IMG/VR virus record: IMGVR_UViG_3300013101_000005
Location: 1-64,000 of that record
DNA: 64,000 nucleotides
Direction: 5' to 3' (one strand)
Source of the DNA: a virus
Position numbers and translations under genes: made by a program. Below the pieces are notes generated by a model, which was given only the letters and a program-made list of their open reading frames with translations, was not told the origin of the DNA and did not search any database. Position 1 is the first letter of the stretch; each line of letters starts with the position of its first letter. Below, in pieces: positions 4,210 through 35,368 of this stretch.

Positions 4210-4340
4210 CAATCGTCTTTACGTTCTTCCATTTCATCGACACGTTTTTTTAATTTAAAGTGTCTCCAAACCAACCAGCCCACTAACCCGATACCTCCAA
4301 TAAAGGCAACTCCCATAAACACATTAACAATAACAAACAT
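4209..4340 (-). CDS. Single-pass small membrane protein
   Basis: A 43-aa reading frame, short but convincing. It begins with about 25 hydrophobic residues (MFVIVNVFMGVAFIGGIGLV and on), followed by a charged cytoplasmic-like tail rich in Lys, Glu and Asp. AAAGGATG lies about 8 nt before the ATG, and the stop overlaps the methyltransferase start (TGATG). The role is unknown. Confidence 0.7.
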   Translation of the reverse strand: MFVIVNVFMGVAFIGGIGLVGWLVWRHFKLKKRVDEMEERKDD

Positions 4341-14855: not shown

Positions 14856-15503
14856 CTAAACTCCTCTGGTAAAGAATGCCGTAAGTATATTAGGCAATCC
14901 TTGGTTTCCTGTTCCACGAATAGTGTCCTCTATGTTATCATACTCAAGCATAACGTATCCCATACGTTTCATAAATTTAATCAGTCCTCTTCTTGTAAAG
15001 TGGTGGTAGTGTTCTTCTGGCCTTAAATGTTTCCACGTAGTAAACCACTCAAAAGAAGCGTCCTTTGGATAATGGGACCACGGCACAGAGATACAAATAT
15101 ACTTACAATCAAGTTCCCTAACAAATTCAAGATCTTCAAAATGTTCTAAAGAATCAAAGAATGTTATTAGGTCATAATGTTTTCCAAGTAGGTCCTCTGC
15201 CTTTGCAACACCAAAGGGCAATGGGTATCCACTTATGTCATACCCATACGGCTTCATCCCTTGTCTACGGCATGTTTCTAAAAAATCCCCATTACCGTAC
15301 CCAACATCAAGAACAGTTTTATAGTGTATGTCCATAAAATTTCTAATAAAGTGCAACCGTAGTAATGACATTGCTGTTGTCTGCCATCCGTAAGAATCAT
15401 AACGTTCTTTTACATATGTTTCATCATATACAAAAGGTTTTGGATTCACAAGATGTATAACCTCATCCTCACTTATTACATATTTATGCCCATTAACCTC
15501 CAT
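14856..15503 (-). CDS. Class I SAM-dependent methyltransferase
   Basis: A 215-aa protein. Motif I is VLDVGYGNGDFL near residue 64, with an acidic post-I position in YGYDIS. LITFFDSLEHFEDL, near residue 113, is a typical motif IV region of the Methyltransf_23/11 type. SVPWSHYP and a final helix complete the Rossmann core. The substrate is probably a small molecule or glycan rather than DNA (inference, from relatives in sugar and lipid pathways). Confidence 0.82.
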   Translation of the reverse strand: MEVNGHKYVISEDEVIHLVNPKPFVYDETYVKERYDSYGWQTTAMSLLRLHFIRNFMDIHYKTVLDVGYGNGDFLETCRRQGMKPYGYDISGYPLPFGVAKAEDLLGKHYDLITFFDSLEHFEDLEFVRELDCKYICISVPWSHYPKDASFEWFTTWKHLRPEEHYHHFTRRGLIKFMKRMGYVMLEYDNIEDTIRGTGNQGLPNILTAFFTRGV

Positions 15504-18407: not shown

Positions 18408-19448
18408 CTACCTTACTCTGTATGGCTTACCCGGTTTACTTGGAGGATCTACATCTGGGAATGGAGGAGCATAAGGTTCCGATTCTGGAGAAAAAGGTCC
18501 TTGTCTGCTTTCTGCATCCCTTCCTGCAACTCTGATCCATTGTGTAACTCCTGCAATTCCTGTATATGTAATTGAAGTTGTTTCTGTAACAGCATATGCT
18601 ACCCAATTAGGATTCCTTGCTGTTTTTACTTCTGCTATATATTGTACCACAGGTGTTCCTGTTGTTGGTGCTGTCCAAGTATATCTAGTATCTACAGGTA
18701 TATCTTCTGGTGGATCTACTGGCCCTAGAGGAAGATGTCCAAAATTGAAATTTTGAGCTACTTCAGCTTCAGTTAATTCTCTATCAAAAAGACCAAAGAA
18801 GTAAAAAGTACCTAACCAAGGTCTATCATTTGATTGTTCATTAGCTAGAGCAAAATAGTAATCTCCCCAGTTGTTAATAATACCTGCGTTAGAAGCAGAT
18901 GCAACTTTTGTGCCATTAACAAAAAGGGTAGTTACATTTAATGTGCTTCGTGTAATTACAATATGTATTAGTCCGGAACCGGCACTACTCGTCACTCCCG
19001 GCATACCATATACATCTGTAACAGAGGTTCTTATTCTAACTTCTAATTCTGATACTGCTTGTCCAACAACAAAGTTACCACCACCCGGATAACCATTTAA
19101 AGAGTAAGCCGCTATTCTAGCTGGGCCACTTTGTGTATAATTTCCTGGTTCTACCCATAATTCAACAGAGAACTCGCCAGTTGATTCTATTGTAGATATC
19201 CACCATGGACGTATTGAGGATGCAATTTTAGTAGGGGAATTTATAGTTAATCCCCCACCAAGCACCCAAGATACATTTGTTGGATCAGCAATTGTCAAAT
19301 GTATTGGAACAGGGGAAACAGCAACATCCTGAACTATGTTCCCTGTCCCCTCTGAAAACCAATACATAGACAAGATACCATCATCGACTCTTTCCTGAGC
19401 AAGTAATGGTGATGCAAGTAATAATAAAAATACTAATAACTGTTTCAT
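18408..19448 (-). CDS. Secreted LamG-like plus FN3 protein
   Basis: A 346-aa protein. Signal peptide MKQLLVFLLLLASPLLAQ with an A-x-A-like end. Residues about 25-245 form a concanavalin/LamG-type lectin domain (GEFSVELWVEPGN, LFVNGTKVAS, FGLFDRELTEAEVAQNF). Residues about 255-330 are an FN3 domain, and the C-terminus is PPSKPGKPYRVR. LamG domains commonly bind glycans. Since it carries an export signal it likely acts at the cell surface rather than in the virion. It overlaps the upstream FN3 gene by 1 nt. Confidence 0.78.
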   Translation of the reverse strand: MKQLLVFLLLLASPLLAQERVDDGILSMYWFSEGTGNIVQDVAVSPVPIHLTIADPTNVSWVLGGGLTINSPTKIASSIRPWWISTIESTGEFSVELWVEPGNYTQSGPARIAAYSLNGYPGGGNFVVGQAVSELEVRIRTSVTDVYGMPGVTSSAGSGLIHIVITRSTLNVTTLFVNGTKVASASNAGIINNWGDYYFALANEQSNDRPWLGTFYFFGLFDRELTEAEVAQNFNFGHLPLGPVDPPEDIPVDTRYTWTAPTTGTPVVQYIAEVKTARNPNWVAYAVTETTSITYTGIAGVTQWIRVAGRDAESRQGPFSPESEPYAPPFPDVDPPSKPGKPYRVR

Positions 19449-19792
19449 TATTGTACTCTATAGGGCTTTCCTGGCTTGCTTGGAGGACCAAAATCTATAA
19501 TTTCAATATCTGAAATATCAGAGAATTCCCCCTGATTGTTAAAAATATCTACTCCAGCAACTTGTATCTGATAGGGTACAAGAGCATCTGCTGTAAATTC
19601 AAAATAAACAGTGTCTACTACGGTTGTAGAGAAAAGAACAGTGTCTTTATATAACTCTACTGTGTATGTCACCGCAACTGCACCAGAGTCCGGTACGTCC
19701 CATGAGAAAGCCATTGTCCCACTTGTTTGTGCCACAGCAGTTCCTGTGAATAAAACCAGTACAACCAATCCTAATAATAGTCTTTTAATCAT
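19448..19792 (-). CDS. Secreted FN3 protein
   Basis: A 114-aa protein: signal peptide (LLLGLVVLVLFTGTAVAQ) and one FN3-like domain (WDVPDSG...TYTVELY...YQIQVAGVD). It ends PPSKPGKPYRVQ, the same tail as its downstream neighbour. It probably arose by duplication with the C-terminal part of that neighbour. Confidence 0.72.
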   Translation of the reverse strand: MIKRLLLGLVVLVLFTGTAVAQTSGTMAFSWDVPDSGAVAVTYTVELYKDTVLFSTTVVDTVYFEFTADALVPYQIQVAGVDIFNNQGEFSDISDIEIIDFGPPSKPGKPYRVQ

Positions 19793-19892: not shown

Positions 19893-20528
19893 TTAACATT
19901 TAATAAATGCTCCTGTAAGGTGTTTGTCATCAACTTTATAACACTCATGCACTGTGTAAGCATGTTTTAAAAACAGAGCAGATAGTGTTTTGTCATTCCA
20001 ATATGTTTTATGGTTAGGGCTACCCAATTGTCTCTCCCAAGGAATAGATATAATAAACATTCCACCAGGTTTTAATATTCTTGACATTTGTTCCATAGCT
20101 AAGTCAATATCTTCTTTAAAAAGATGTTCTAACATATGAAAAGACATCACTGTATCAAAGGACTCTTCATCAAAGTGTTTATTCAATTCTAATACATTAG
20201 AGCATACCATTGATGTTTTTTCTTTAGCTTCTTTTGTAGCATGTTCCTTTATCTTATTAAACCTATCTATAGCTGCTTGGTTTAAATTAACCCCAACTGC
20301 TTTTATTACTTTAGGATTTTCTGCTGCTATAAGAGTTGTAGCAGAATGCCCAGACCCTATATCTATAATGTTACCATAAATAAATGTTTCATATCTTTGT
20401 ATAGCTTTTACATTTGGGTGCTCTCTAATTAGAAGGAGCACAGAGCTATCTTCTATGTCTGTATTTGTTACATAATATTCTTCTGCATATTTTTCTGTAG
20501 AAGATACCGTTGTGTCTTTAGTGAACAT
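19893..20528 (-). CDS. SAM-dependent methyltransferase (Methyltransf_11 type)
   Basis: A 211-aa protein. Motif I IIDIGSGHSATTL near residue 54, FDTVMSFHMLEHL near 124 and ILKPGGMFIISIPW near 151 are the standard three signatures. It is the downstream end of a run of sugar-type enzymes (sulfotransferase, glycosyltransferases, further methyltransferases), so a glycan or lipid substrate is most likely. Confidence 0.85.
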   Translation of the reverse strand: MFTKDTTVSSTEKYAEEYYVTNTDIEDSSVLLLIREHPNVKAIQRYETFIYGNIIDIGSGHSATTLIAAENPKVIKAVGVNLNQAAIDRFNKIKEHATKEAKEKTSMVCSNVLELNKHFDEESFDTVMSFHMLEHLFKEDIDLAMEQMSRILKPGGMFIISIPWERQLGSPNHKTYWNDKTLSALFLKHAYTVHECYKVDDKHLTGAFIKC

Positions 20529-20531
20529 ATT

Positions 20532-21299
20532 TTATAATTCTTCCTTATAATACAGTTCAAATAATAATGAATCTTTTTTTAGTATTTTTGCTTTAAGTTC
20601 TTCTGTATACCACGCATCTCTATTTCTATCATAATGATTAACATTATGGGCCGATAAGAAACTTTTATCAATTTTATCAGTAAGATCTAAATGATCTAAA
20701 ATTTTAGGCATTTCTTCATTTAAAGATTCAATTGTATACATTTTAGTACTTAATAATTGATCATGTTTTTCTTTAAATTCTTCTAAAGACATTGTACTAA
20801 TAATTCTTTCCCAATCTAAAAAATAGGTATATATATATTTATATGTTAACCACCCAGCATCTAGTTTCCCATTTCTTACTACTTTAAATAATCTGATACA
20901 GTTGTCATTTCTGTGTTGGTCACTTCTTGTCTTAAAGAAATCAATACCGTTTAAGGCACCAGACATAAATTGTTGGAAAGACATTTTAGGTAAGAACCCA
21001 AATAAACGATGTTCATCTAGGTGCTGCCACTCTTTTGAGTATACATATAAAGACATATACCATTCAAAAGGATTTCTAATTACACCAAAAACAAAAAAGT
21101 CAGAGAAGTCAAAAGATAAATCATGAATTATATTATTACTTTTCATATATTTTTGGTTTTTTATATAACCATCAATACCCTTTGCATATAATTCTGCTGT
21201 GCAAAATCCACCCAGTGGCTCTAGTATTCTTCTAACATATTTTGAAGCTGTTTTTTGGAAATATATAAAAACAAATTTGTTCTTTTTATCTATGAGCAT
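20532..21299 (-). CDS. Sulfotransferase-family protein
   Basis: A 255-aa protein. The PAPS-binding loop is at residues about 11-22 (FIYFQKTASKYV, Lys16) and the 3'-phosphate motif at about 71-84 (GVIRNPFEWYMSLY, Arg74 and Ser82). This is the layout of cytosolic-type and glycan sulfotransferases, which move sulfate from PAPS to a hydroxyl or amine. The acceptor is unknown; the neighbouring glycosyltransferases suggest a sugar. It overlaps the upstream GT9 gene by 10 nt. Sulfotransferases are uncommon in phages. Confidence 0.78.
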   Translation of the reverse strand: MLIDKKNKFVFIYFQKTASKYVRRILEPLGGFCTAELYAKGIDGYIKNQKYMKSNNIIHDLSFDFSDFFVFGVIRNPFEWYMSLYVYSKEWQHLDEHRLFGFLPKMSFQQFMSGALNGIDFFKTRSDQHRNDNCIRLFKVVRNGKLDAGWLTYKYIYTYFLDWERIISTMSLEEFKEKHDQLLSTKMYTIESLNEEMPKILDHLDLTDKIDKSFLSAHNVNHYDRNRDAWYTEELKAKILKKDSLLFELYYKEEL

Positions 21300-22150
21300 C
21301 CTAATTCCTTTATTGCCATTTCTCTATGATTTTTCCATTGGTTACTTAATGTTTTTTGTTCATTCTCTGCATGTACTTCTAGTTTGTCTAGTGATAACCA
21401 AAAGGGTAGTGCTTGATGAATTGGGGTTGCTGTCCATAATGATATTAGTTTTTTATTAAAAGCACCAGCGATATGCATTACAACCGAATCTATTGCAATA
21501 ACCTCACTTGCAGAAGCAACGAGTGCTTTTGTTAGATTCATATCATCTATATTTATCTTTGTAGAGAATTCAAGGGAAGTACTACCTAGTTCAATTATAG
21601 TCTGCCCTTTTTCATACTTATCTCTGCAATAATTATAAACAAAAAGGAACATATCCTTTGTTAGTATTTTCCCTGTATTTCCTGGTGATATGTGTATTAC
21701 AATACTTTCATTATGACCACCAATAGACATGGCGTTTGCAAAGGAAGGTAGGTGAAGTCCAAGTTCTGTCTTAAACTCATCCCCTTTTAATTGTATTCCC
21801 ATATCTTCTGCAAATCTATAAATCTTGTGCATTCTCCAATCTTTATAACCATGTGGTGAATTGCATAAAATTGTTTTAGCTTCTAGTTTTTTTGCAAAAG
21901 TCGCTCCTTCAATTGCTATTCTCTGTAGTCCAGCACTAAAGGGGATTTCCCAAGGGTCTGACAGAATTGGATGTACATTAAATCCATATTCAAGTCCTTG
22001 AAATAATTCTACAGAGGTTTGTCCAAATCTTTTTAAGGTAGCTATATGTACTTCTGTGTCTGGATGCATCTTTTGATATTTTGCAAAAGAGGGGGTTAGC
22101 ATAACACTATCACCAAGTCCGTTACCTGTTAAAAACAAAACTTTTTTCAT
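21290..22150 (-). CDS. Glycosyltransferase family 9-like protein
   Basis: A 286-aa protein with the heptosyltransferase layout: KKVLFLTGNGLGDSVMLTPSF at the N-terminus, a central HISPGNTGK element, and near residue 230 ALVASASEVIAIDSVVMHIAGAF (the D-s-x-x-x-H-x-A acceptor/donor motif). GT9 enzymes usually add heptose or similar sugars to lipopolysaccharide core. The ATG at 22150 (ATGA overlap, GGAGAG upstream) is preferred over a more distal start. Confidence 0.83.
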   Translation of the reverse strand: MKKVLFLTGNGLGDSVMLTPSFAKYQKMHPDTEVHIATLKRFGQTSVELFQGLEYGFNVHPILSDPWEIPFSAGLQRIAIEGATFAKKLEAKTILCNSPHGYKDWRMHKIYRFAEDMGIQLKGDEFKTELGLHLPSFANAMSIGGHNESIVIHISPGNTGKILTKDMFLFVYNYCRDKYEKGQTIIELGSTSLEFSTKINIDDMNLTKALVASASEVIAIDSVVMHIAGAFNKKLISLWTATPIHQALPFWLSLDKLEVHAENEQKTLSNQWKNHREMAIKELGCS

Positions 22151-22701
22151 TTTACTCTCTCCATAAAGAACAGGCCACAGTCCCGTGTGTGTTTTATTTC
22201 TTTCCATTCATCTGTGATATCTAGAAATCTCATTACAGCTTTGTGAAGTTGTGGCCCAATTTTACCTTTACCTACAGTGCCATCTATAGTATAAACATCA
22301 TGAAGTACTATATACTTTTTTACCTTTTCTTGATGTATTCTTAATAAAGCACAAACATGATTGTATGTGTGCAAAGAATCTATAAATAAAAGATCTGTTT
22401 CTTCTAAGACAACCTCTAAGTCATTTGAAATAATTAATTCTAAATTTAAAGTTGTATCAGCTACTATTTCTTTTAAAACTTCCCATTCTGGCTGAGATTT
22501 AATATCCACACCAACAACCTTTTTTGGCTCACCAGCTAACCAACCATAAATAGAATTACATTTATGTACCCCTAATTCTGTAATATGATCTACTTCTTTT
22601 GCAATAGCTAATATTACATCCATATCATATATTATGGAATCTTTCAGTGGGTCTTTTTTACAAACAAGGTCATACATATCTTTAACTGATTTATTCTGCA
22701 A
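22147..22701 (-). CDS. SAM methyltransferase, Methyltransf_24/CmcI-like
   Basis: A 184-aa protein. ITELGVHKCNSIYGWL is a motif I variant; VVGVDIK, LLFIDSLHTYNHV and YIVLHDVYT follow, as in sugar O-methyltransferases of the Methyltransf_24 or cephalosporin-hydroxylase-like group. A TTG start at 22701 with AGGAG six bases upstream is preferred, giving a clean junction with the upstream gene. Confidence 0.72.
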   Translation of the reverse strand: MQNKSVKDMYDLVCKKDPLKDSIIYDMDVILAIAKEVDHITELGVHKCNSIYGWLAGEPKKVVGVDIKSQPEWEVLKEIVADTTLNLELIISNDLEVVLEETDLLFIDSLHTYNHVCALLRIHQEKVKKYIVLHDVYTIDGTVGKGKIGPQLHKAVMRFLDITDEWKEIKHTRDCGLFFMERVK

Positions 22702-22702
22702 G

Positions 22703-23389
22703 TTATCTCCTAAAAACAAGCATAGGAATGCCTGTTGTAAATACACGATCAACTTTATACCCAAATTGTCCTAAGAACCCTTCAAGATCTTTTCGTTGTT
22801 GTGGTGTGGTAGCTTCTGTAGCTATAACTGGTTTGTGCTCTTGTATTAAAGACATAGCCCCCAGTAAAGCAGATAATTCACATCCCTCTATGTCAAGTTT
22901 TATGAAAGATATCCTTTCTTTAGGATCTAATTGAGAAAATAATTTATCAATAGTTGTAGCTTTTATTTTACCATCATCTAAAACCTTTATATCCTTTACA
23001 TCTACACAAGATAGCTGTGGTTGTGTTTTAGATGGGTTTAATTCAATAAACCCTTCTTTTTCCATAAGGGCATAATGTAAAAAAACAACTTTATTTTTAT
23101 TTATAAGGTTTGTTGCACAGTTCTTTTCATACAATTCATTAAAATATAAGTCAGGATCTATAGAATAGACATGCGTAGACTTACAATGATTTGCGAAGAA
23201 TATTGTGTGATTCCCTACAAAACAACCACCATCAATGTAAGACCCTTCTAAATCTAGGGATTCTATGTAACTTAAAAAAGGAAGTTCATAAAAAGTTTTA
23301 TTCCTTCTGAAATCTCTCATAAAATGAGTTTTTTCTTCTCCATAAAAAGTGTAATCTATATCTTTATATGTAAACCTAAAAGAGTTCAT
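22703..23389 (-). CDS. FkbM-family methyltransferase
   Basis: A 228-aa protein. YIDGGCFVGNHTIFFA near residue 51, VYSIDPD near 74 and FIKLDIEGCELSALLGA near 161 are the FkbM hallmarks. Family members methylate sugar or polyketide hydroxyls. It sits between a glycosyltransferase and another methyltransferase, so it probably acts on the same glycan. Confidence 0.87.
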   Translation of the reverse strand: MNSFRFTYKDIDYTFYGEEKTHFMRDFRRNKTFYELPFLSYIESLDLEGSYIDGGCFVGNHTIFFANHCKSTHVYSIDPDLYFNELYEKNCATNLINKNKVVFLHYALMEKEGFIELNPSKTQPQLSCVDVKDIKVLDDGKIKATTIDKLFSQLDPKERISFIKLDIEGCELSALLGAMSLIQEHKPVIATEATTPQQRKDLEGFLGQFGYKVDRVFTTGIPMLVFRR

Positions 23390-24317
23390 TATTACTTACC
23401 TTTCCTAACAAAGTTTGACAAACAGTTTTCCAGCCATACCTGTCATGAACAAGGGAACTTCCCTGCTCTGCTATTCTTTCTCTTTCTTCTTCGTTTTCTA
23501 AGAAGTAAATCACTTTTTCATAAAGGTCTTGATCATCTGCAAAAGTTTCAAGATGTCTGCCTACTAAAAAATCAGTATGTATCTCATTTACATCTGATGT
23601 TATAACAAAGGCTCCTGCGGCCATAGACAAGGTAACTCTGTCAGAATAGCTATCAGTTCTAGATACATTAAGTACTATCTTAGCTTGATATATTTCAGAA
23701 ACTAAATTTGCATTATAAATAGGATGGTTGGCTCCAAAATTTCCATGCCAACCTTCTCCAAAAACTTTTACATTAACACCATTATTCATTAAATAGTTTA
23801 AAGATTTAAACCTCTCTGGTGTTGGGGAACCTACAAACAAAACATCATGTTTTTTATCCATGTATTTGGGGGTGAATAAGTCTAAGTCGGCCCCTTCATT
23901 TATTTTGTAGGAGTTTGGTTGTCCATTCTCTTTAAAAAAGTCAACAACTTCCATACAAGTAGCACTTGCCACTGTACAGGCAGATGCCCGTAAGTCTGCT
24001 AGTATCATCTTTGCTGTGGTTATTGGGTCCATAAACCAATAAAATGTGTTGGCTAAACTAGTTGCTATCTGCATAGCAGTAATAGGCATTGTGTCTGTTT
24101 TGCAAAAAATAATTAAATCTAGGCCACCATTATCTTTTATAGCTTTTACGGTAGTTATAAAATCTTCTTCTAGTTTTCCTTGGTTACCGTAGTACGTTTT
24201 TAAGCGTGTTCTATAGTTATAACAAATAACCGTGTGACCTAGTTTTTTTAATGCATTTGCCATAAAGGTGTTTGTGGAATGTTCTATATCACACACACCT
24301 ACAATCATTATTTTCAT
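23376..24317 (-). CDS. GT4-like glycosyltransferase (Glyco_trans_1_2 type)
   Basis: A 313-aa protein. A GT-B fold is suggested by MIVGVCDIEHSTNTFMAN at the N-terminus, the central DVLFVGSPTPERFKSL, and near residue 230-270 RVTLSMAAGAFVITSDVNEIHTDF followed by a helical end. This is the pattern of spore-protein/CgeB-like GT4 relatives. The ATG at 24317 has TTAGGAGAG directly upstream. It overlaps the FkbM gene by 14 nt. Confidence 0.8.
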   Translation of the reverse strand: MKIMIVGVCDIEHSTNTFMANALKKLGHTVICYNYRTRLKTYYGNQGKLEEDFITTVKAIKDNGGLDLIIFCKTDTMPITAMQIATSLANTFYWFMDPITTAKMILADLRASACTVASATCMEVVDFFKENGQPNSYKINEGADLDLFTPKYMDKKHDVLFVGSPTPERFKSLNYLMNNGVNVKVFGEGWHGNFGANHPIYNANLVSEIYQAKIVLNVSRTDSYSDRVTLSMAAGAFVITSDVNEIHTDFLVGRHLETFADDQDLYEKVIYFLENEEERERIAEQGSSLVHDRYGWKTVCQTLLGKVSNNELF

Positions 24318-24334
24318 TACTCTCCTAACAGATC

Positions 24335-24757
24335 TTACCAATAACCACCAATTCCAATTGAAGTTCCAACAAGGTCATCATATGCAATTGATAAAACTAA
24401 TCCATTAATGTCCTGCTCTTTAAGAGGGAATGCCCATAGAAATTCAAATCCGACATCCCCCTCCAAATATTTATCCTTTGTAACAAACGCTGAATAGATA
24501 CCAACAAAAGCACCTTTGTATAATCTCTTGTTTATACCGAATCCAAAGTAAGTCATAATTATGTTTTCATCATTTGGTCGGAATGTCCCAAGTGTACCAG
24601 AGAGCCCAACTTCGTTCTCTGTACCTAGTTCTTGTAAGGTAACCCCAACGTATTCTCTGTCATCAAAATTGACTGAAATAGAGGTCTTGGTTTCTCCATA
24701 AACACTCACTGACCAAGCTAACATCATAATAACTAAACCAAGTAATAGTTTCTTCAT
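24335..24757 (-). CDS. Exported small beta-barrel-like protein
   Basis: A 140-aa protein with signal peptide (LLLGLVIMMLAWSVSVYG) and then alternating polar/hydrophobic strands, ending in an aromatic (GIGGYW). Size and C-terminal aromatic resemble small outer-membrane barrels or surface-located phage conversion proteins. If so, the host is Gram-negative. No family match is claimed. Confidence 0.55.
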   Translation of the reverse strand: MKKLLLGLVIMMLAWSVSVYGETKTSISVNFDDREYVGVTLQELGTENEVGLSGTLGTFRPNDENIIMTYFGFGINKRLYKGAFVGIYSAFVTKDKYLEGDVGFEFLWAFPLKEQDINGLVLSIAYDDLVGTSIGIGGYW

Positions 24758-24766
24758 TGTATTCTC

Positions 24767-25585
24767 CTATACAGCGTTTGTAAGAAGCGTCTTTCTTTTA
24801 TCTTTAGGAAGTTCTGTAAATCTACCACGATTGGGATGGCTACAATCATTACATCTCCAACGTCTATACATTCCAACTTGTGTATATTCAAATCCCTTTT
24901 TGATTAAGTTCTTAGAACCACAAGCTGTGCAACAGGGGTCACTATCACTGACGTATAAACCAAAATTAGGATGCCGTTTATCCCAAGGACGTATTTGTAA
25001 ATAAACTTCCTCTAATAAATGTACATCTTGTATATTATAATCCATCATAGTTTTCCATGCTTTAGTATCACCATTCATACACCCTATCCATAGATCAAAA
25101 TCTGTCTTATTCTTTTTACCAAGACCTAAGTATTGTCCTATATAGTCCAACTTATTTGATGTAAGACGAAATTCTCTACGTGCTGTTGTTAGGGTATCTA
25201 TAATTTTGTAAGGATCGGGTGGAGGGAAATTATGATACAAAAATCTTGCATTAACCATTGGTACATCAAATCGTGTTCCATTGTGTGCAACAACCATATC
25301 TGCTTCATTAAGTAAATCCCATAGAGGTTCTAAAAGTTTTAGATCATTTTTCTTATCTTTCTTATACATACTTTTAAAATCTGGTAACTTAAAGTTTATA
25401 ATCTTATCTTCATGTAACCATTTAGCCGCCCAACACAAAATAAATAGATCCTCTTTAATCATATCTATTGGGATATACTTTTGTCTTAGACTCCATATGT
25501 GGGTTAATACGGGGGTTGTCTCAATATCAAATACTAATATCTTAGGCCCGTCATATTTTTGTTTTGCTTTTTTACGTTTAGCCAT
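24767..25585 (-). CDS. DnaQ-like 3'-5' exonuclease with zinc ribbon
   Basis: A 272-aa protein. The DEDD exonuclease motifs are ILVFDIETTP (Exo I), VVAHNGTRFDVPMVNARF (Exo II) and YNIQDVHLLEEVY (Exo III, Tyr type). The C-terminus has a four-cysteine zinc ribbon (CCTACG...CNDC). This YprB-like RNase H-fold nuclease could process replication ends or degrade host DNA. The ATG at 25585 with AAAGG upstream is preferred over a longer frame. Confidence 0.82.
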   Translation of the reverse strand: MAKRKKAKQKYDGPKILVFDIETTPVLTHIWSLRQKYIPIDMIKEDLFILCWAAKWLHEDKIINFKLPDFKSMYKKDKKNDLKLLEPLWDLLNEADMVVAHNGTRFDVPMVNARFLYHNFPPPDPYKIIDTLTTARREFRLTSNKLDYIGQYLGLGKKNKTDFDLWIGCMNGDTKAWKTMMDYNIQDVHLLEEVYLQIRPWDKRHPNFGLYVSDSDPCCTACGSKNLIKKGFEYTQVGMYRRWRCNDCSHPNRGRFTELPKDKRKTLLTNAV

Positions 25586-26054
25586 TAGTTGCCTTTCTTT
25601 GCCTATATTGTAGAATAAACTTTCTAGTCTCATTCATATCAATCAAAGTGCCGGGACATGTTTTGTTTCTTTTCAGTTTTTCCCAAGGTGTGTCCCTGTG
25701 CCCTATTACATTTTTTAATGGTATATTATATGCATTCATTAAATCAGATACTAAAGAAGATAACAATTGTAATTGAATATCTGTCCACTCAATATGATCC
25801 CCATGCCCTGTTACACAAATACCTATACTTTTCCTGTTGAAACCATAAGCATGGGCTCCATGATAATGTAGGGGTCTTCCTAATTCTATACTAGCTGTGT
25901 CATCAAACATTGAACCAGTAATTACATAATGATACCCTATGGTTTCCCATCCATTTTCTAAGTGCCATTGTGTTATAATTTTAGCATTTGCTTTGCCTCT
26001 AAAAGCCGCTGTATGTAATACAATATGTGTTGGAAATTTCTTAAATTCTCTCAA
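25578..26054 (-). CDS. Endolysin, N-acetylmuramoyl-L-alanine amidase
   Basis: A 158-aa single-domain Amidase_2/PGRP enzyme, like T7 lysozyme. Zinc ligands are visible as His14 (IVLHTAA), His119 (VIGHRDT) and Cys133 (KTCPG); GYHYVI near 40 supplies the catalytic Tyr region and HYHGAHAYGFN the substrate groove. It cleaves the lactyl-alanine bond of peptidoglycan at lysis. There is no signal peptide, so a holin is needed; a small two-helix membrane protein is encoded two genes upstream. Confidence 0.92.
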   Translation of the reverse strand: MREFKKFPTHIVLHTAAFRGKANAKIITQWHLENGWETIGYHYVITGSMFDDTASIELGRPLHYHGAHAYGFNRKSIGICVTGHGDHIEWTDIQLQLLSSLVSDLMNAYNIPLKNVIGHRDTPWEKLKRNKTCPGTLIDMNETRKFILQYRQRKATNG

Positions 26055-26073
26055 AGGCGACTCCTATCGAAAC

Positions 26074-26099
26074 GTGGGGGTAGGAAACCCCACCCCCAC
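26074..26099. other. GC-rich hairpin; terminator-like in plus direction
   Basis: An 8-bp stem GTGGGGGT/ACCCCCAC with a 10-nt loop. On the plus strand it is followed by TATTTTTG and so resembles a terminator against rightward transcription, although the surrounding genes are leftward. In the gene direction no U-tract follows. Confidence 0.55.
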
Positions 26100-26110
26100 T
26101 ATTTTTGTGA

Positions 26111-26386
26111 TTAAAGTAGATTTGCGGCACGCCTCAACTCGTTCTTAGTTAACCAAAACAAACCAGTATCACTAATGGTACGCTTTGCCATACTACGATC
26201 ATTCTGATTTACAATAGCATCTACAGCATTCTTCCATCCACCTATGCCCGATCTAGTTGCTAATAGAGTAAAATTGGATTTGGTAGCCTTAAAACTACCA
26301 TCAATCATAAAAGTAGTGATTTCCTTCTTAGCATCTCGCTTACTAATCATATTCCTAACGCCTTTGTGCCACTTAACAGTCTTCAT
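26111..26386 (-). CDS. Hypothetical basic protein
   Basis: A 91-aa Lys/Arg-rich protein beginning MKTVKWHKGVRNMISKRDAK. The start has AAGGAG 8 nt upstream. It lies between the holin-like gene and the amidase, so a lysis-related role is possible, but no motif supports it. Confidence 0.55.
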   Translation of the reverse strand: MKTVKWHKGVRNMISKRDAKKEITTFMIDGSFKATKSNFTLLATRSGIGGWKNAVDAIVNQNDRSMAKRTISDTGLFWLTKNELRRAANLL

Positions 26387-26407
26387 ATGAGACTCCTTCA
26401 AGTTAAA

Positions 26408-26620
26408 CTATAGTTTTTTAACCTTAGTCATATCATAATTTATGCCTATGACTACTTTTCCTAGAAACTTTAAAGCAAGTTGCGTGCCAATTACAGTTAA
26501 GAGTACTGTAAAAAAGGTAGGTAGGCCAAAAAGACCCATAAATAGCATAACACCTACGGTAGTACATCCCAGCAGGAATGCGGCATACCTAAGGTAATCT
26601 GCTTTAGAAAATGTCTGCAT
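26408..26620 (-). CDS. Holin-like two-helix membrane protein
   Basis: A 70-aa protein with two hydrophobic segments (AAFLLGCTTVGVMLFMGLF and FTVLLTVIGTQLALKFLG) separated by a short turn, and a basic C-terminus (MTKVKKL). This is the size and topology of a class II holin. It lies two genes upstream of the endolysin in the same operon. The assignment is by topology and context. Confidence 0.55.
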   Translation of the reverse strand: MQTFSKADYLRYAAFLLGCTTVGVMLFMGLFGLPTFFTVLLTVIGTQLALKFLGKVVIGINYDMTKVKKL

Positions 26621-27488
26621 TTTTTATCTCCTTAATGATATTATCTATTGGTATATCTCTACATGCCCAATTATTGTATGAACTTTCATTACATTTATTC
26701 CAAGAATCCCTGTACAGACAAGGTTGACAGTCCAGCCCTGCTGTTAGTATTTTTATGGTTTTATGTAATGTTGGGTGATAACTTTTAACAGAACTGGTTG
26801 CTGTAAATAAAACTAAACCAGCTTGTTTTAGTACTGCGGCAATGTGAAATGTTCCGGTGTCATTTGATATGAAAAATTTAGCGTTCTTAATTAAAGAAGC
26901 ACTTTCTTGTATTGGTAACCCTGTTTTATTAGTACCACCACTGTACTCCTCAGGTGCCCCAATATTAGCTACAGTATATCCTTTGTCTTCCAATGTTTGT
27001 ATCAGTTCCCCCATTTTAGGGTATTTACGCCTATGCCAATAAGAGGTATTTAATAATGTACATCCATTATGGACTACAAAATCAAATTCCTCAGATTCGT
27101 CTACTTCAGGAAATTTAACATTGAATAAATCTTTAGGCAGGCTCAATCCCAAATCTGTAGCTATAGAAAGGTATACTTCTACTTCATTTGTGTATGGGGA
27201 ATATATAAATTGTTTTTGTATATCATTTATTAAGGAAGTCTCTAACCTTTCGGAATTACGAAGCACTCCCTTCGTAGTGGCTAGTTCTATTCGTCCATCA
27301 TATAATCCCTTTTTATATGTTTCTACAACTTCGGCATATTCTTTAAATATCCAAGATATTGTTTCGTTAGAACAATTACTTAGATTATATATATCTACAT
27401 CTATGCCATTGAATTTTAAAACGTTAACTAAAGGGAGAACTTGAACGCAGTTGCCCATGCCTTCTCCGACACATAATAATACTTTCAT
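26604..27488 (-). CDS. Glycosyltransferase family 9-like protein
   Basis: A 294-aa protein. KVLLCVGEGMGNCVQVLPLV at the N-terminus and LIKNAKFFISNDTGTFHIAAVL near residue 195 are the GT9 landmarks; a C-terminal Cys cluster (CQPCLYRDSWNKC...C) is present, as in several ADP-heptose transferase relatives. Second of three GT9-like genes in the window. It overlaps the holin-like gene by 17 nt. Confidence 0.82.
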   Translation of the reverse strand: MKVLLCVGEGMGNCVQVLPLVNVLKFNGIDVDIYNLSNCSNETISWIFKEYAEVVETYKKGLYDGRIELATTKGVLRNSERLETSLINDIQKQFIYSPYTNEVEVYLSIATDLGLSLPKDLFNVKFPEVDESEEFDFVVHNGCTLLNTSYWHRRKYPKMGELIQTLEDKGYTVANIGAPEEYSGGTNKTGLPIQESASLIKNAKFFISNDTGTFHIAAVLKQAGLVLFTATSSVKSYHPTLHKTIKILTAGLDCQPCLYRDSWNKCNESSYNNWACRDIPIDNIIKEIKNADIF

Positions 27489-28669
27489 TATTTGCTTCTC
27501 CAGAAGATTTTCCTAATAAAGGAACCCAGTGTCCCTTCATCCCTATGGTCATTAATTTGTTCATCAAGAACAGAATCAGCAATGACTTCCTTGTTTAAAT
27601 AAACATCATCTATAGTAGTTCCTTCTAGTGGCCCATCTAAAGTAGCAACACCACGTATACTTAGTATACCATCTGTGTTACCACTAACTAGGTGAACTTT
27701 GCCCGCAATAAATTCTATTGTTGCTTTACAATTTGGTGTATCACAATTCAAAACAGAAATACCACCAGAGTAACCACGTAAACTAAACTCAGTATCTTCC
27801 CCAGCATTCATGTCAATTGTTGGGGAGTCAAGCCCAGGAATCATTGACATAGAATGACTTAATGTATTATTTGTTCCAGCTTCTAAAATTATAGTACCAC
27901 CTAAAGCACAATCTATGCCATTAGCATGGAATCCTGTTATATCTAGTAATGTGCATTGTTCAAAATAGGCATCACCAAGCATATTACCTTGAACGCCCAT
28001 TCCTTTAACATAAAGATCTGTTGTATTATACCCATTAAAATCAAGAAGTCTAGAAACAGAGTCTGCTTTGAATTTCCATCCACTAAATATTCTATCAAGA
28101 ATTATATTCCCGTTTTGGACTCTTAATTCTGTTATACCAAACAAGCCACCTATAGTATGGGCATCCCCTAAGTTATTTACAGGCTGTGCTCTAGTCCCTA
28201 CAGGGTGTGTTATCCCCGAATATGGACTAGTAGGATCATAGTTTATAGTTCCACCGTAATCCAAATTATCAGAGATAGGACTAGGTATTTCTACATAAAC
28301 AATTTCAGCATCGGCAGGTGATATAAGTATTTTAATAGAACTTGTAAGATCATCTAAGTCAAACACAGTAGGATCAACTTCTGGATCATCAGAAATCATT
28401 TCACCATTTGTTACTATTCTAGAATCTTCATCATACGGTACTATTTTAGTGCCTTCTAACAATACCAAATACCTAGGCGTTGCTTTACCTCCACCCTTAG
28501 GAATATTTCCATAAGCTGCCATAAATGGATTATATTTTCTAAGGTCTTCTTCGGTACGTCTTTCAGTTCTGTACTCCCTATAAATATCATCTATAGGATG
28601 AAATTCAGTAACGTCTGGTAATAGATAAACTCTTCTGGCAACACCGTCCCAAGATTGGACTACAGCCAT
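27488..28669 (-). CDS. Virion structural protein, possible tail fibre component
   Basis: A 393-aa protein beginning AVVQSWDGVARRVYLLPDVT, then DDIYREYRTERR and GGGKATPRYLVLLEGTKIVP. As I recall, this N-terminal module recurs in tail or fibre-associated proteins of many phages. Residues about 180-350 are strand-rich, in the manner of a beta-helix, and could bear receptor contacts. It closes a run of structural-looking genes. Confidence 0.65.
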   Translation of the reverse strand: MAVVQSWDGVARRVYLLPDVTEFHPIDDIYREYRTERRTEEDLRKYNPFMAAYGNIPKGGGKATPRYLVLLEGTKIVPYDEDSRIVTNGEMISDDPEVDPTVFDLDDLTSSIKILISPADAEIVYVEIPSPISDNLDYGGTINYDPTSPYSGITHPVGTRAQPVNNLGDAHTIGGLFGITELRVQNGNIILDRIFSGWKFKADSVSRLLDFNGYNTTDLYVKGMGVQGNMLGDAYFEQCTLLDITGFHANGIDCALGGTIILEAGTNNTLSHSMSMIPGLDSPTIDMNAGEDTEFSLRGYSGGISVLNCDTPNCKATIEFIAGKVHLVSGNTDGILSIRGVATLDGPLEGTTIDDVYLNKEVIADSVLDEQINDHRDEGTLGSFIRKIFWRSK

Positions 28670-28678
28670 TATAAGCTC

Positions 28679-30166
28679 CTATACGTTTGTTTCCAGACCC
28701 GGTGCACAAGTAGCTGTCACAACAGCAGTTCTTGTAATAGTAAAGGTTGTCTTTTGCTGTGTTGCTATACCATCTCCTTCACACTCAAACACAATAGATT
28801 TATCCTCGCCAGCATTTAGTCCAGCTTGATCATTTGAGTCATAAGCATACGAGAATGTAATAACCGTTAGTGCACTTACATTTCCCTTAACATCTGCTGT
28901 AGCTGCATCATAAACAGTAACAGCATCTGCTGTATTAAAGTCAGTAGCATCAGCACCATCTTCGTAATAAGCATGATACCAAGCGTTTCCATCAGCAGCC
29001 GCATTAGGACCAACTGTAACCTGAACTTCAACATTGAAGGGGTACGTCTTTGTACCACCAGCATCATCAGTAAACACAACACTCTGCTGATCCGATGTTG
29101 GAATATTTTCTATAAATAATCCCAAAACATCAGCACCAGATCTAGTAACAATCTGGCCACCAGCGTTGTAGGTATACCATGTATTTACTTCACGCCCAGT
29201 AGTATCTGTTTCTGCCCCAGCATCAATGTCTGCATCGGCTTGAGCAAGAGCATCAAGATAAGCGACACATTGGTCAAGGGAACCAGGAACTGAATTAGAA
29301 AGTATCCAAGCAAAGGTACCATCGGCTTCATTAAATCCTGTTTCTACTTGTTCTGAGGTTGGGGCTAATTTAGTTAAGGCCATCCCTGTCCACGGAGATA
29401 TTTGGGAAGTGTACACATCATCTAGTGTGTAAGTTCCTGTGGTAAGGTGGACAGATTCACCAAGAGCGAAACCAGTACCATAACCACCCATCTCTGTGAT
29501 ACCAGAGTCTGCTAACTCTTTCTTATCATAGTTATTACCAAAGGTACGCACCTTTAGTGCCATGTAAGAACGAGTATCAAAATCATCAGCACCGGAATCA
29601 GTAGGAGTATTCCCTGTATCTCCAAGTACTTGTACTGCCTCATCAACAGCACCTACTTTAGCAAAGTCAGTAGTAGTACCAAAGTTCGCTAACTGGTAGT
29701 AAGGAGCAGATGTGGTGTCAATATTACCAAGTGATCTAGCACCAAAGTAAATTCTATCCACACCACCATCAATAGCACGTTCAATCCAACCAGAACCTCT
29801 AATCTTAACTCTATCATTATCAGCAAATTTTCTAGAGTTAACACACTCATAGGCACCAGCAAACTTGAATGATCCAGTAAAGTAAAAATCAAACTCACGA
29901 AGATTTTCGTCAATTCTACGTTCCTGCCTTTCAAAGGCATAAATAGCACCCATAGTGATGCCAAATTGATTTGTTAGGGGGTTTGCTTGGGATCCCCCGG
30001 CGTTAGTGAGGTCAACTGTAGCAGCTTCCTCAGCAGTAATTAATTCCATTTCACCAGCAGAAAGATCAAAATAGATATTTCCATCTGGGGAACCAGAGCG
30101 TCCTACTGTTGATTGCGCAAGCAATGTGTCGTAGTTATCTAGTCCAATTAGTTGTGCTGTTGCCAT
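28679..30166 (-). CDS. Virion structural protein
   Basis: A 495-aa, Ala/Asp/Thr-rich, acidic protein with few cysteines and long strand-like segments, as is typical of capsid- or tail-surface proteins. The DNA is less AT-rich than nearby enzymes, suggesting codon selection for high expression. It lies in an overlapping run with the genes on either side. The exact position in the virion is unknown. Confidence 0.6.
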   Translation of the reverse strand: MATAQLIGLDNYDTLLAQSTVGRSGSPDGNIYFDLSAGEMELITAEEAATVDLTNAGGSQANPLTNQFGITMGAIYAFERQERRIDENLREFDFYFTGSFKFAGAYECVNSRKFADNDRVKIRGSGWIERAIDGGVDRIYFGARSLGNIDTTSAPYYQLANFGTTTDFAKVGAVDEAVQVLGDTGNTPTDSGADDFDTRSYMALKVRTFGNNYDKKELADSGITEMGGYGTGFALGESVHLTTGTYTLDDVYTSQISPWTGMALTKLAPTSEQVETGFNEADGTFAWILSNSVPGSLDQCVAYLDALAQADADIDAGAETDTTGREVNTWYTYNAGGQIVTRSGADVLGLFIENIPTSDQQSVVFTDDAGGTKTYPFNVEVQVTVGPNAAADGNAWYHAYYEDGADATDFNTADAVTVYDAATADVKGNVSALTVITFSYAYDSNDQAGLNAGEDKSIVFECEGDGIATQQKTTFTITRTAVVTATCAPGLETNV

Positions 30167-31662
30167 TAGATATTCTCCTCTTTAGTAAGGTTTATTGTAA
30201 AAGACTTATCTTTGTTTTCTAAAGTAAAATATGTTTGGGATTCTTCATATCCGTCATGTATTATTTGTAATACGGCATCTGTATCGGAAGAATAGGTAAA
30301 GTTATATGTTTGTGTCGAGGATGCTGCATTTTCTTCTCCAGCTAAATTTACATTTCCTATAATACCCGGAGTAGCATTCTTTTCATATAGTCTCCACTCA
30401 TATCCAGTTATTCCTACACCATCTACTTCTATCTCAAACACAACCTGTTTTGTGTTTAATATTGTAACAGTCCCACCACCTGAATTGGTTGAGGTACTTA
30501 TGTTAGACACACCAGTAGCATTTATTGTTACATCTCCAGCAGAGTTATTTTCTACATCATATGTATTGTTGGTGTATGTATTATTATCATCTGCATATGT
30601 ACCGCCAGCAGTATATAAGGTAGCTACCCCATTATTAAGGAAAGTACAGTAAGAAACATTGTTTGTCCCTGTTGGGAAGACTAACCCGTTGTCCCCTGTA
30701 GTATCTGAAACTATATTTGTAATAAATTCAGCTAAGTCAGGATATATTTCACCACAACTATTAAAAGTATTTGTTGTAACGTAATGCCCTGAATCATTAC
30801 TGAAATAGATTTCTCTTCCTTGTGCTATTGCCGCCCCTGATAGGGTAAAATCATTTATATTTGAATCTGTAAAATCTAATGAAAAAGAGGCTCCCGCTGC
30901 TTTTATAGAACCACTCTTAAATACAAAATCTGTAGTTCCTGTTGAATTTCCAGCTACAGCTATTTTGTACAAAGTACTTTTTACATTTTTATCTGTAAAT
31001 TTTACATCTACATTAGAGTCTGTATAATAACAATTAGCTGTGGAAACTGTGTCCCCTAATTCAAGTGCTCCTGATAAAAAATAGACTCCTTCAAATTTTT
31101 CAACAATACCATAACCATTTGCAATGTCGTCTAAAAATATTTCTTCCATTCCAAAATATTCACTAGCTGCTGATTCTGCTTGTAAGCCATCTCCGTACCT
31201 CATATAATCTACCCAAGTATTAATAACACGTTTCGCACTACCAGTTAAAGCAAACTCAACACCAATACGATCAACTGAGGCTGTGTTTACAGTACCAGAA
31301 TCTGGGGTAGATTCTGTATATACACAAATATTTAGCCAACCACCGGCATATGTATCTTTCCCTGCGATATTCCAATATGCTGTATTTGCCCCATCATACA
31401 TAAAGAATCTAAGCCCGCCTAGGGCTTTTGTTTCCATTAAACCATAAACACCAGTAGTTACCCACATACGTATATGTTCTTCAGAATAATCCTGATTTGT
31501 CATACTAAAGTAAATTTGTGTACCATTATTACGAACAATAAAAGATACAGAATTATTCCCCTCTTTTAAAACCTCAGAATCAAGGGCAGGAGTAGGGCCT
31601 GTCCACCCTGTTACTGTTTCAGCATCGGCAATTGTTGTTAAATTAGCAGTAATAGTTGCCAT
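30166..31662 (-). CDS. Beta-rich virion or adhesin protein
   Basis: A 498-aa protein. The first 160 residues are jelly-roll-like (strand-rich, single Trp-Val-Thr turns). Residues about 190-400 show short repeating strands with Asn ladders (SYCTFLNNGV, TYTNNTYDVENN), as in right-handed beta-helices of phage adhesins. The C-terminus is a small Ig-like module (VVFEIEVDGVGITGYEWRLYE). A tail fibre or tailspike-like role is inferred. Confidence 0.6.
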   Translation of the reverse strand: MATITANLTTIADAETVTGWTGPTPALDSEVLKEGNNSVSFIVRNNGTQIYFSMTNQDYSEEHIRMWVTTGVYGLMETKALGGLRFFMYDGANTAYWNIAGKDTYAGGWLNICVYTESTPDSGTVNTASVDRIGVEFALTGSAKRVINTWVDYMRYGDGLQAESAASEYFGMEEIFLDDIANGYGIVEKFEGVYFLSGALELGDTVSTANCYYTDSNVDVKFTDKNVKSTLYKIAVAGNSTGTTDFVFKSGSIKAAGASFSLDFTDSNINDFTLSGAAIAQGREIYFSNDSGHYVTTNTFNSCGEIYPDLAEFITNIVSDTTGDNGLVFPTGTNNVSYCTFLNNGVATLYTAGGTYADDNNTYTNNTYDVENNSAGDVTINATGVSNISTSTNSGGGTVTILNTKQVVFEIEVDGVGITGYEWRLYEKNATPGIIGNVNLAGEENAASSTQTYNFTYSSDTDAVLQIIHDGYEESQTYFTLENKDKSFTINLTKEENI

Positions 31663-32391
31663 TTATAATAACTCCGTCCCTAGGATACTAACACTAAATA
31701 AATGTGATGCTCCGTAGTCTATAAACTGTAAATGAACAGAGTCTCCAGAGTCTTCGTCTTCATAAGGTTTATCAACATATATAGTTTCCCCAAGATTACC
31801 GTGATCCATTAATATGGTTTCTGGCGCAAGACCTGCTACGCCATTTGCTTTTGGTAAAAGTTTGAGGAACCAATCTGTTGAGTCAGTTTCTATGTGAATA
31901 TGTTTTACAATAGCTTTTGATGTATTCCAATTATTTACAGGATCGGTAAAACTATTATAGCCTTCACTAGAATCTACGCCTTCTATTAAAAAGTATTCAG
32001 GCACTCCAGAGCCTCCTACACTAGTTGCATCTAAGTAATCTGTTGAATTTTTTATCCAAACATTCTTTAAGACACTCCAAGTTATTAATTGATTATTGAA
32101 ATCTCCAGCAGGAATTAAATCTGAAATAGAAGCAATCCCACCAGTGGCACTACCCCCAGACATAATGACAGTTACATTATAAACCTCTTCTTCACCTACA
32201 GATATATTGTATACATCTGTGGAAGAAATTATGTTGTATGTTTCTTCTTCTTGTGTTATTAATTTATAACTATCTTCAGCTACTGTAACATAGTAAACAT
32301 CAATATTAGTATATACTTTATTTACAACTTCTACCGTTGTAACTGAGACATTATAAACATCTTCAGCCAAAGTTACCTGGTAGGTACTCAT
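31663..32391 (-). CDS. Structural protein with N-terminal YNV repeats
   Basis: A 242-aa protein. The first 75 residues are short tandem strands of the pattern (D/E)(V/E)YN(V/I)xVxxEE (EDVYNVSV, DVYNISVGE, EEVYNVTV), then a Gly-rich hinge (SGGSATGGIAS) and a globular C-terminal domain. A fibre shaft with a tip is the natural reading. Confidence 0.6.
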   Translation of the reverse strand: MSTYQVTLAEDVYNVSVTTVEVVNKVYTNIDVYYVTVAEDSYKLITQEEETYNIISSTDVYNISVGEEEVYNVTVIMSGGSATGGIASISDLIPAGDFNNQLITWSVLKNVWIKNSTDYLDATSVGGSGVPEYFLIEGVDSSEGYNSFTDPVNNWNTSKAIVKHIHIETDSTDWFLKLLPKANGVAGLAPETILMDHGNLGETIYVDKPYEDEDSGDSVHLQFIDYGASHLFSVSILGTELL

Positions 32392-32750
32392 TATTCAGTT
32401 ATCCTTTTTGTTACATGCGGATTAACAGTAAGGGTTCCTTTCGCAATTGTATTCACAGGACCCCCAGATTTTATAACTTTTATATCATGTACATACTTAC
32501 CAGGTTCTATATTTGTTACAAGTGCCCCAAGGGGTATTTCTAATGTATTTGTATAATCAACAACAGACATACTAAGAAGCATATCACTTGGATTTAAAGC
32601 AATAGCGGCATTGGCATCTGTGTCAGAAAAATTGTATTTTGCTGTGTAGTAGAATTCCCAATCTGTGATAGTTTGATCAAAAATTAATTTGATAACTCTA
32701 TCATCTCCTTGAGCTATTACTTTGTTTAAATCAAAAGTAAATTTTGCCAT
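32391..32750 (-). CDS. BppU-N-like structural domain protein
   Basis: A 119-aa Ig-like protein. FDLNKVIAQGDDRVIKLIFDQ, then WEFYYTAKYNFSD, and LVTNIEPGKYVHDIKVIK follow the pattern of N-terminal domains of baseplate upper proteins and related head-tail appendage proteins. It probably anchors the fibres encoded downstream. Confidence 0.6.
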   Translation of the reverse strand: MAKFTFDLNKVIAQGDDRVIKLIFDQTITDWEFYYTAKYNFSDTDANAAIALNPSDMLLSMSVVDYTNTLEIPLGALVTNIEPGKYVHDIKVIKSGGPVNTIAKGTLTVNPHVTKRITE

Positions 32751-34246: not shown

Positions 34247-34688
34247 ATCTCATCAAGTAATTGAAGAATTTATTCAAAATATGAAAGTAACCAGAATTGT
34301 GCAAACTGGATATTTGAATGTTCCGCTTACTAATATGTTAGCAGAGCATGGAGAAGTAATACTTATTACAAGTGCAACGTTTAACCCATTTGAAGATAAG
34401 AAACAAGTTATTCTAACAAATGATCACTACCATAAATCAGCATATACATTTAAAAATAAGCATGGAATACTTGATGTTTGTGTGTTTGGACATATGGAGC
34501 AGTTGGGTGATTTTAGGGCAACACTATGTGCATGGGTACCTGTTATTAGAAAAAATGGTCTTATTGTTTTTCTAAATAGTCAACAAGAAGATATACAAAA
34601 GGTTATAAAAAGTTACATAGAACAAATTGATGCAGATTATTTTGAAATTACTGAATGTGCTGATCTAACTTTTATAAAGGTGAAATAA
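34236..34688 (+). CDS. Hypothetical protein with methyltransferase-like fold pattern
   Basis: A 150-aa protein. The alternation RIVQTGYL..., LDVCVFGHMEQLG and AWVPVIRKNGLIVFLN resembles the second half of class I methyltransferases, including a motif-VI-like KNGLIVFL. A glycine-rich SAM motif is missing, so it may be inactive or a different Rossmann protein. AGGAGG precedes the start; it overlaps the previous gene by 11 nt. Confidence 0.55.
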   Translation: MIVESHQVIEEFIQNMKVTRIVQTGYLNVPLTNMLAEHGEVILITSATFNPFEDKKQVILTNDHYHKSAYTFKNKHGILDVCVFGHMEQLGDFRATLCAWVPVIRKNGLIVFLNSQQEDIQKVIKSYIEQIDADYFEITECADLTFIKVK

Positions 34689-35368
34689 TGGATAGATTAT
34701 TTATAACTACAAAAGATCGTCCAACTGAACTTGCTATTTTATGTAAGTCTTTATTACATAGTGATATGAGAAAATTTATCAAAGAAGTAATTTTCTTGGA
34801 TGATAACTCTGAAGAGATAATGGAAATACAAAGAATTTATACAGCCTTTATGTATACTCTTTTACCACAAGGTATTAAGTGTAGGTTACTAGAAGCAAAA
34901 GATGGAAGAGAAGGAATTAATGCCAGTTGGGATAGAATAAAACATTATCCATCTAACCACATTTGGGGATTAAATGGGGATATGATGGTTTTTGAAAACT
35001 ATTTTGAAAGATGTTTAAGTATCTTAACTTTTGGAATTGAAAAGTATGGCATGGGCTCTTCTTTGTTAGTTTCTGGGTTTAATACGCCAATGCATCCAGT
35101 AGAACTTACCCATTATGAACAGAAGTGTGTTAAAGCACCAAGTGTAGGAGGCTGTGCTTTTGTTATACGACATATGGATGTTGTGTTGTTCCTAGAGGCT
35201 TTAGGAAAACCTACAATGAACAGGGGATTTGATTTGCATCTTGGTGAAGTTTTTGATTGTATTTTAACAGCAAATCCCTCAGTTAGCCAGCATATAGGTA
35301 TTTTAACAGGATTAAACCAATTGCAATTATCAGGGTTTCCCGGTGCTTTTGCAAGAGTAAGAGGATAG
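34688..35368 (+). CDS. GT-A-type glycosyltransferase
   Basis: A 226-aa protein. LFITTKDRPTELAILCKSLL and VIFLDDNSEE at the N-terminus match GT2-type nucleotide-sugar binding. IWGLNGDMMVF near residue 97 occupies the DxD position, and VGGCAFVIRHMDVV lies near 150. Sugar and acceptor are unknown. It is next to genes for nucleotide metabolism, so a DNA-base or a glycan acceptor are both possible. It overlaps the previous stop (TAATGG). Confidence 0.7.
   Translation: MDRLFITTKDRPTELAILCKSLLHSDMRKFIKEVIFLDDNSEEIMEIQRIYTAFMYTLLPQGIKCRLLEAKDGREGINASWDRIKHYPSNHIWGLNGDMMVFENYFERCLSILTFGIEKYGMGSSLLVSGFNTPMHPVELTHYEQKCVKAPSVGGCAFVIRHMDVVLFLEALGKPTMNRGFDLHLGEVFDCILTANPSVSQHIGILTGLNQLQLSGFPGAFARVRG

Follow-up and report, generated by a model that had tools for sequence, protein, structure and literature searches.

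We examined a 64,000-nucleotide stretch of viral DNA (positions 1–64,000 of the 98,631-base IMG/VR virus record IMGVR_UViG_3300013101_000005, here referred to as the window) and identified on its minus strand, from 24341 to 19893, a gapless run of six transferase genes that very probably constitutes a phage glycan-capping operon, whatever its acceptor. The run encodes a GT4-like glycosyltransferase, an FkbM-family methyltransferase, a Methyltransf_24-like S-adenosylmethionine (SAM) methyltransferase, a GT9-type glycosyltransferase, a 3′-phosphoadenosine-5′-phosphosulfate (PAPS)-type sulfotransferase and a Methyltransf_11-type SAM methyltransferase, in this order, with ends that overlap or nearly overlap. 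The original prediction for this region was that such enzymes could build or decorate a methylated, sulfated sugar, and the genes are still best read as a cluster with the capacity for glycosylation, methylation and sulfation. More tentatively, we take the run, together with a second GT9 gene at 26604–27488, as an operon that assembles and caps a glycan on a virion protein. Several of the searches covered the whole 98.6-kb record.

The GT4-like gene (23376–24317) matched PF13524 (Glyco_trans_1_2, E 8e-22); its open reading frame (ORF) is open to 24341, and the likely start is an ATG at 24317 preceded by AGGAGA. It is followed by the FkbM gene (22703–23389; PF05050, E 6e-13; NCBIfam TIGR01444, fkbM_fam, E 1e-22, over the cut-off) and by the Methyltransf_24-like gene (22147–22701; PF13578, E 5e-4, below the cut-off), which is open to 22764 and likely starts at a TTG at 22701 or an ATG at 22677. 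The GT9 gene (21290–22150; PF01075, Glyco_transf_9, E 1.9e-6) is open to 22207, with a likely ATG start at 22150 that overlaps the stop of the upstream gene. The sulfotransferase gene (20532–21299) comes next, and the Methyltransf_11 gene (19893–20528; PF08241, E 3.3e-16), the last of the operon, starts 3 bases past its stop. Curated family cut-offs were passed by the GT4, both GT9s, FkbM, Methyltransf_11 and the sulfotransferase. The two GT9-like, the GT4-like and the FkbM genes had been predicted at or near these positions and proved to be real ORFs; of the two further SAM methyltransferases predicted, the Methyltransf_11 enzyme was confirmed, while the Methyltransf_24 assignment fell short of its cut-off. 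The third-position guanine-plus-cytosine content of the cluster genes (0.20–0.27) resembles that of most other phage genes examined; thus, the cluster appears native to the phage rather than recently acquired, and recent host contamination was rejected as its origin.

Against Pfam Sulfotransfer_2 (PF03567), the sulfotransferase scored 30.2 bits (E 6.5e-7; cut-off 22 bits), with a match confined to the first half of the protein, and it also matched PHROG 3347, a phage galactose-3-O-sulfotransferase family, at 6e-5. The 3′-phosphate motif is present as RNPFEWYMS. In an alignment with 20 other viral sulfotransferases, R75, N76, P77, W80 and S83 were invariant, a conservation that is built in, as most of the 21 sequences were found via the RNP motif; matches outside the motif give independent support. 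Sulfotransfer_2 was matched by 14 of the 21 proteins (E ≤ 0.01), and a profile of all 21 returned solved sulfotransferases as its top matches (PDB 5x2b, E 9e-6). When the window protein was compared on its own with solved structures, no sulfotransferase was matched, and its single-sequence AlphaFold model was too poor for use (predicted local distance difference test, pLDDT, 33). The PAPS-type assignment put forward originally survived the attempts at reassignment.

Close relatives of the sulfotransferase and of FkbM were sought in IMG/VR and none were found, and a tblastn search with the sulfotransferase in phage records gave no match even at E 10. Since these searches came up empty, IMG/VR was scanned by a degenerate DNA pattern for RNP[FWY][DE]WxxS(hydrophobic)Y, which returned 33 stretches, most of them encoding sulfotransferases; a narrower pattern added one more contig with two tandem sulfotransferases. 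About 27 further sulfotransferase-bearing virus records were identified by this motif scan. As a control, 28 contigs of at least 20 kb were drawn by an arbitrary 15-mer, the two sets being of comparable combined size (1.43 and 1.56 Mb) and unmatched for lineage. FkbM (E ≤ 1e-3) was found in 6 of the 17 sulfotransferase contigs of at least 20 kb (one duplicate removed) and in 0 of the 28 controls (Fisher p = 0.0015), or in 5/17 versus 0/28 over the curated cut-off (p = 0.005). The GT4 family was present in 7/17 versus 1/28 (p = 0.003), a difference that was not significant over the cut-off (3/17 versus 1/28), and GT9 was detected in only one other sulfotransferase record, a 341-kb phage. The sulfotransferase and FkbM genes lie 106, 152, 1547, 2658, 11166 and 63650 bases apart, on the same strand and within 0.1–11 kb in five of the six contigs. 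Such co-occurrence in other phages had been proposed as a check on the cluster, and it was borne out.

One of these loci, richer than that of the window, is a run of about 20 genes in a 121-kb phage (L050:1197-16930) with two sulfotransferases, FkbM and several glycosyltransferases, and with genes that resemble GDP-mannose dehydratase and aminotransferase genes. A 64-kb phage (L052) carries two sulfotransferases, FkbM, an epimerase-like gene and several glycosyltransferase-like genes, and the 341-kb phage (L053) carries a sulfotransferase, two sulfotransferase-like ORFs, GT9, GT4, two FkbM genes and a NeuB (sialic-acid-type synthase) gene at L053:12484-13278. In L051 and L054 the sulfotransferase is paired with FkbM-type methyltransferases, and in L023 and L036 it sits among sugar-nucleotide epimerases. 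Hence, a sulfotransferase with FkbM, with or without glycosyltransferases, recurs in unrelated uncultivated phages. In several phages, sulfotransferases are thereby linked with FkbM methyltransferases and with glycosyltransferases, which suggests that the product is a glycan carrying sulfate and methyl groups.

Several parts of a complete pathway were sought in the phage. No match to the sugar-nucleotide epimerase/dehydratase family PF01370 and no adenosine 5′-phosphosulfate (APS) kinase were found in the 98.6-kb record, and sulfate adenylyltransferase/APS kinase and sugar-nucleotide pathway genes had no match in the window phage; PAPS and sugars should therefore come from the host. APS-kinase-like genes lie near the sulfotransferase in two other phages (L014:4435-5262 and L047:851-1273, the former also with a cytidylyltransferase-like part), in line with the use of PAPS; some phages may thus make PAPS themselves. 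In a hydropathy scan of every ORF across the 98.6 kb, the tape-measure ORF alone had more than two membrane-like segments, and no multi-pass membrane protein of the flippase, polymerase, GtrA/GtrB-like or any further kind was detected. It follows that the phage would be unable by itself to flip or polymerise a surface polysaccharide, and that the acceptor should be reachable from the cytoplasm. A seroconversion cassette of the gtr/wzy type (GtrABC, Wzy, Oac) was also considered and rejected, as no multi-pass flippase, transferase, polymerase or acetylase was present.

From these genes we infer the activities, step order, donor sugars and acceptor as follows. The soluble GT4 and the two GT9 enzymes would extend a cytoplasmic acceptor with sugars from the host pool of activated sugars, the FkbM, Methyltransf_11 and Methyltransf_24 enzymes would O-methylate these sugars, and the sulfotransferase would transfer sulfate to them from PAPS of the host; the result would be a short cap that is methylated and carries negative charge. 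As acceptor, a virion protein is most likely, and in particular the tail fibres, whose genes lie immediately upstream in the gene run; capping would then protect the fibre or adjust its properties. Among acceptors, virion fibres are slightly favoured, with host surface glycan close behind and DNA unlikely. If confirmed, negative charge would be added to phage particles or hosts, and adsorption and superinfection could be affected.

The balance tips slightly to the virion, short of proof, because the GT9 gene at 26604–27488 (minus strand; PF01075, E 8e-11) is linked directly to the fibre block and has been retained by a relative with replaced fibre genes. Its start overlaps the stop of ORF 27488–28669, at the end of a block of five tail-fibre/appendage ORFs (27488–32750, minus strand) that lies upstream in one gene run with the cluster. 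The block is equivalent in place to a collagen-like tail-fibre ORF (1450 aa) of the relative (L005), the N-terminal parts being common to both, and its three largest ORFs had no family match of their own; at the place equivalent to 26604–27488, the relative has a GT9 of 47% identity. The lack of a membrane protein for flipping or polymerising surface polysaccharide in the 98.6 kb also supports the virion, as do two other phages in which the sulfotransferase lies behind tail-fibre-like genes (L014) or adjoins the portal gene (L035); such proximity to virion genes was seen in some contigs only.

The following points weigh against this proposal. In its 5′-phosphosulfate loop, the window sulfotransferase has QKTASKY in place of the PKTAGTS seen in most relatives, the Lys and one Ser being kept and the second Ser/Thr replaced by Lys, so that, judged from this loop, its activity is not assured. 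An endolysin and an exonuclease are neighbours of the cluster, and position alone is thus no proof of a common function. In several of the other phages, the clusters are found among replication or nucleotide genes rather than among tail genes. Finally, host sugars attached to lipid at the inner membrane could just as well be the substrates of soluble GT9 and GT4 enzymes. As for an extension of the proposal to other viruses, it seems rather unlikely that an undescribed recurrent module (sulfotransferase, FkbM and GT4/GT9) places sulfated and O-methylated glycans on tail fibres or capsids in many uncultivated phages; if true, bacterial viruses would carry charged sugars of their own making on their virions, as proposed for some giant viruses.

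It is quite possible, instead, that the enzymes modify a host surface glycan (the lipopolysaccharide (LPS) core, a lipid-carried O-unit or a capsule precursor) at the cytoplasmic membrane face, and that the host machinery exports the methylated, sulfated glycan, whereby competing phages would be blocked or released virions kept off debris. The best-known role of GT9 enzymes is in building the LPS core. The GT9 proteins at 21290 and 26604 belong to the GT9 family and match LPS heptosyltransferase models, though far under the cut-offs (the best WaaC/WaaF/WaaQ equivalog score was 32.4 bits, with a cut-off of 134.6). A host target also agrees with the interpretation of P-SSM2-type clusters as host polysaccharide modification against superinfection (PMC7824862). 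A tyrosine-recombinase-like gene (39445–40242), recognised by its sequence amid the replication genes and conserved in the relative at 49%, may point to a temperate phase and hence to a longer stay in the host. On the other hand, neither a flippase, polymerase, GtrA/GtrB-like or further multi-pass membrane protein nor a nucleotide-sugar epimerase/dehydratase was found in the record, and the operon runs on directly from the fibre and lysis genes, which suggests late expression, when superinfection would be less important.

It is improbable that the genes are a loose set of auxiliary transferases that make no single product, each having a substrate of its own among small metabolites, nucleotides or proteins. 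The endolysin and exonuclease neighbours are clearly unrelated, Methyltransf_11 and Methyltransf_24 are broad families, and the outlying glycosyltransferases belong to other operons, all of which would fit such a set; however, the six transferases form one overlapping run, and the co-occurrence of these families with sulfotransferases in other phages is non-random. DNA bases, also named as a target in the original prediction, are a most improbable one, and so is a hypermodified base bearing sugar and sulfate as the product: the phage does encode a C5-cytosine DNA methyltransferase (3274–4212; PF00145, E 1e-54), and phage base modification based on glycosyltransferases and sulfotransferases has been proposed (Iyer et al. 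2013, as cited in PMC10829341), but no Tet/JBP oxygenase (PF12851) was matched in the record, the thymidylate synthase found is an ordinary ThyX and not a hydroxymethylase (no family-wide search for hydroxymethylases was made), and enzymes of the FkbM and GT9 types usually work on sugars and glycolipids.

The closest phage system is the surface-sugar ("LPS") cluster of cyanophage P-SSM2 (AY939844, 193–205 kb), which is likewise a phage-borne run of glycosyltransferases and SAM methyltransferases and whose unnamed genes include FkbM (202 kb) and a Methyltransf_11 gene; clusters of this type, which other jumbo cyanophages also have, have been proposed to alter surface polysaccharide (PMC7824862). 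P-SSM2 differs in having its own sugar-nucleotide enzymes (GDP-mannose dehydratase, epimerases), none of which were found in the window phage, and other glycosyltransferase families, whereas a sulfotransferase is neither annotated in its cluster nor present among the four unnamed genes scanned. The fibril glycosylation clusters of moumouvirus and megavirus also combine virus-encoded glycosyltransferases with a sulfotransferase, and are thought to decorate fibrils, possibly with sulfated sugars (PMC10117803), but these are giant viruses of eukaryotes that themselves encode a sulfate adenylyltransferase/APS kinase and pathways for sugar nucleotides. In chlorovirus PBCV-1, A064R and A061L comprise glycosyltransferases and two methyltransferase activities, demonstrated experimentally, for a methylated virion glycan (PMC9614988); the enzyme families are different, the set has no sulfotransferase and the host is eukaryotic. 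OM43 phages and Synechococcus phage S-SRM01 encode sulfotransferases whose function was called unclear (PMC10580990), of the Sulfotransfer_3 type and with no surrounding glycan cluster described, whereas that of the window is of the Sulfotransfer_2 type. The combination, originally put forward as without a described phage counterpart, is thus novel in a narrow sense within the open-licence literature searched, since phage surface-sugar clusters (glycosyltransferases with FkbM in P-SSM2) and virus sulfotransferase clusters (moumouvirus) have been published.

Starting from the fibre ORFs, the gene order on the minus strand is GT9, a small protein with two membrane-like segments (26408–26620, a holin candidate by hydropathy alone), a small ORF of unknown function, an N-acetylmuramoyl-L-alanine amidase or endolysin (25578–26054; PF01510, E 5e-18; 57% identical in the relative), an RNase-H-like exonuclease (24767–25633; PF13482, E 3e-11), a small secreted protein and then the transferases. 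The endolysin and the exonuclease had been overlooked inside this interval, as had a GT9 gene beyond the window at record 90.4–91.6 kb, which is adjoined by a GT-A-like ORF without a family match. The small secreted protein (24335–24757) had been described as outer-membrane-like; it has a signal-peptide-like N-terminus and no family match, and it is possibly a beta-barrel, the strands appearing in a low-confidence single-sequence AlphaFold model (pLDDT 42–43).

Other transferase genes lie away from the cluster. A SAM methyltransferase predicted at 14856 was confirmed on the minus strand (14856–15503; Methyltransf_23, PF13489, E 3e-16). Of the outlying glycosyltransferases predicted, the one at 41334–42287 (plus strand) is GT9-like with a PF01075 match below the cut-off and about 45% identity to a related-phage stretch (L004), the one at 34688–35368 (plus strand) is a putative GT-A-like enzyme with a weak GT2 match (E 0.095) and 55% identity in the relative (L005), and the one at 36508–37212 is unsupported, with no family match. 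In total, the 98.6-kb record has two further GT9-type genes beside the cluster's two, plus GT-A-like ones.

By its sequence, the record belongs to a tailed phage: the plus strand encodes terminase (47218), portal (50401), capsid (55816), tape-measure and tail proteins, whereas genes for DNA metabolism occur on either strand. A single phylogenetic relative was found, IMGVR_UViG_3300023210_000146, a contig of 30 kb that shows synteny across 25.6–56.8 kb of the window, with 75% identity in the terminase and 76% in the capsid protein; it stops at the endolysin, and thus short of the 19.9–24.3 kb operon region. The terminase otherwise gave only distant matches in phage records, and a host search by the capsid protein gave no match. 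The ribonucleotide reductase had one 62% match (L127:1205-3055), on a 3.9-kb contig of a freshwater-type Flavobacteriia metagenome-assembled genome; this is possibly a phage contig within the bin, and the match is too weak for naming a host.

The tape-measure ORF (L002:220-6546) contains a long stretch of repeated units resembling VPELPxLxVxIPxIP. An 842-aa protein at 7343–9871, which matched neither Pfam nor PHROG, begins with a membrane-like segment, and its two halves resemble each other. Small secreted proteins are also encoded at 17035 and 10201, and two adjacent secreted proteins at 18408–19792 have a common C-terminal tail, PPSKPGKPYRV(Q/R), one of them with a Laminin_G_3 domain.

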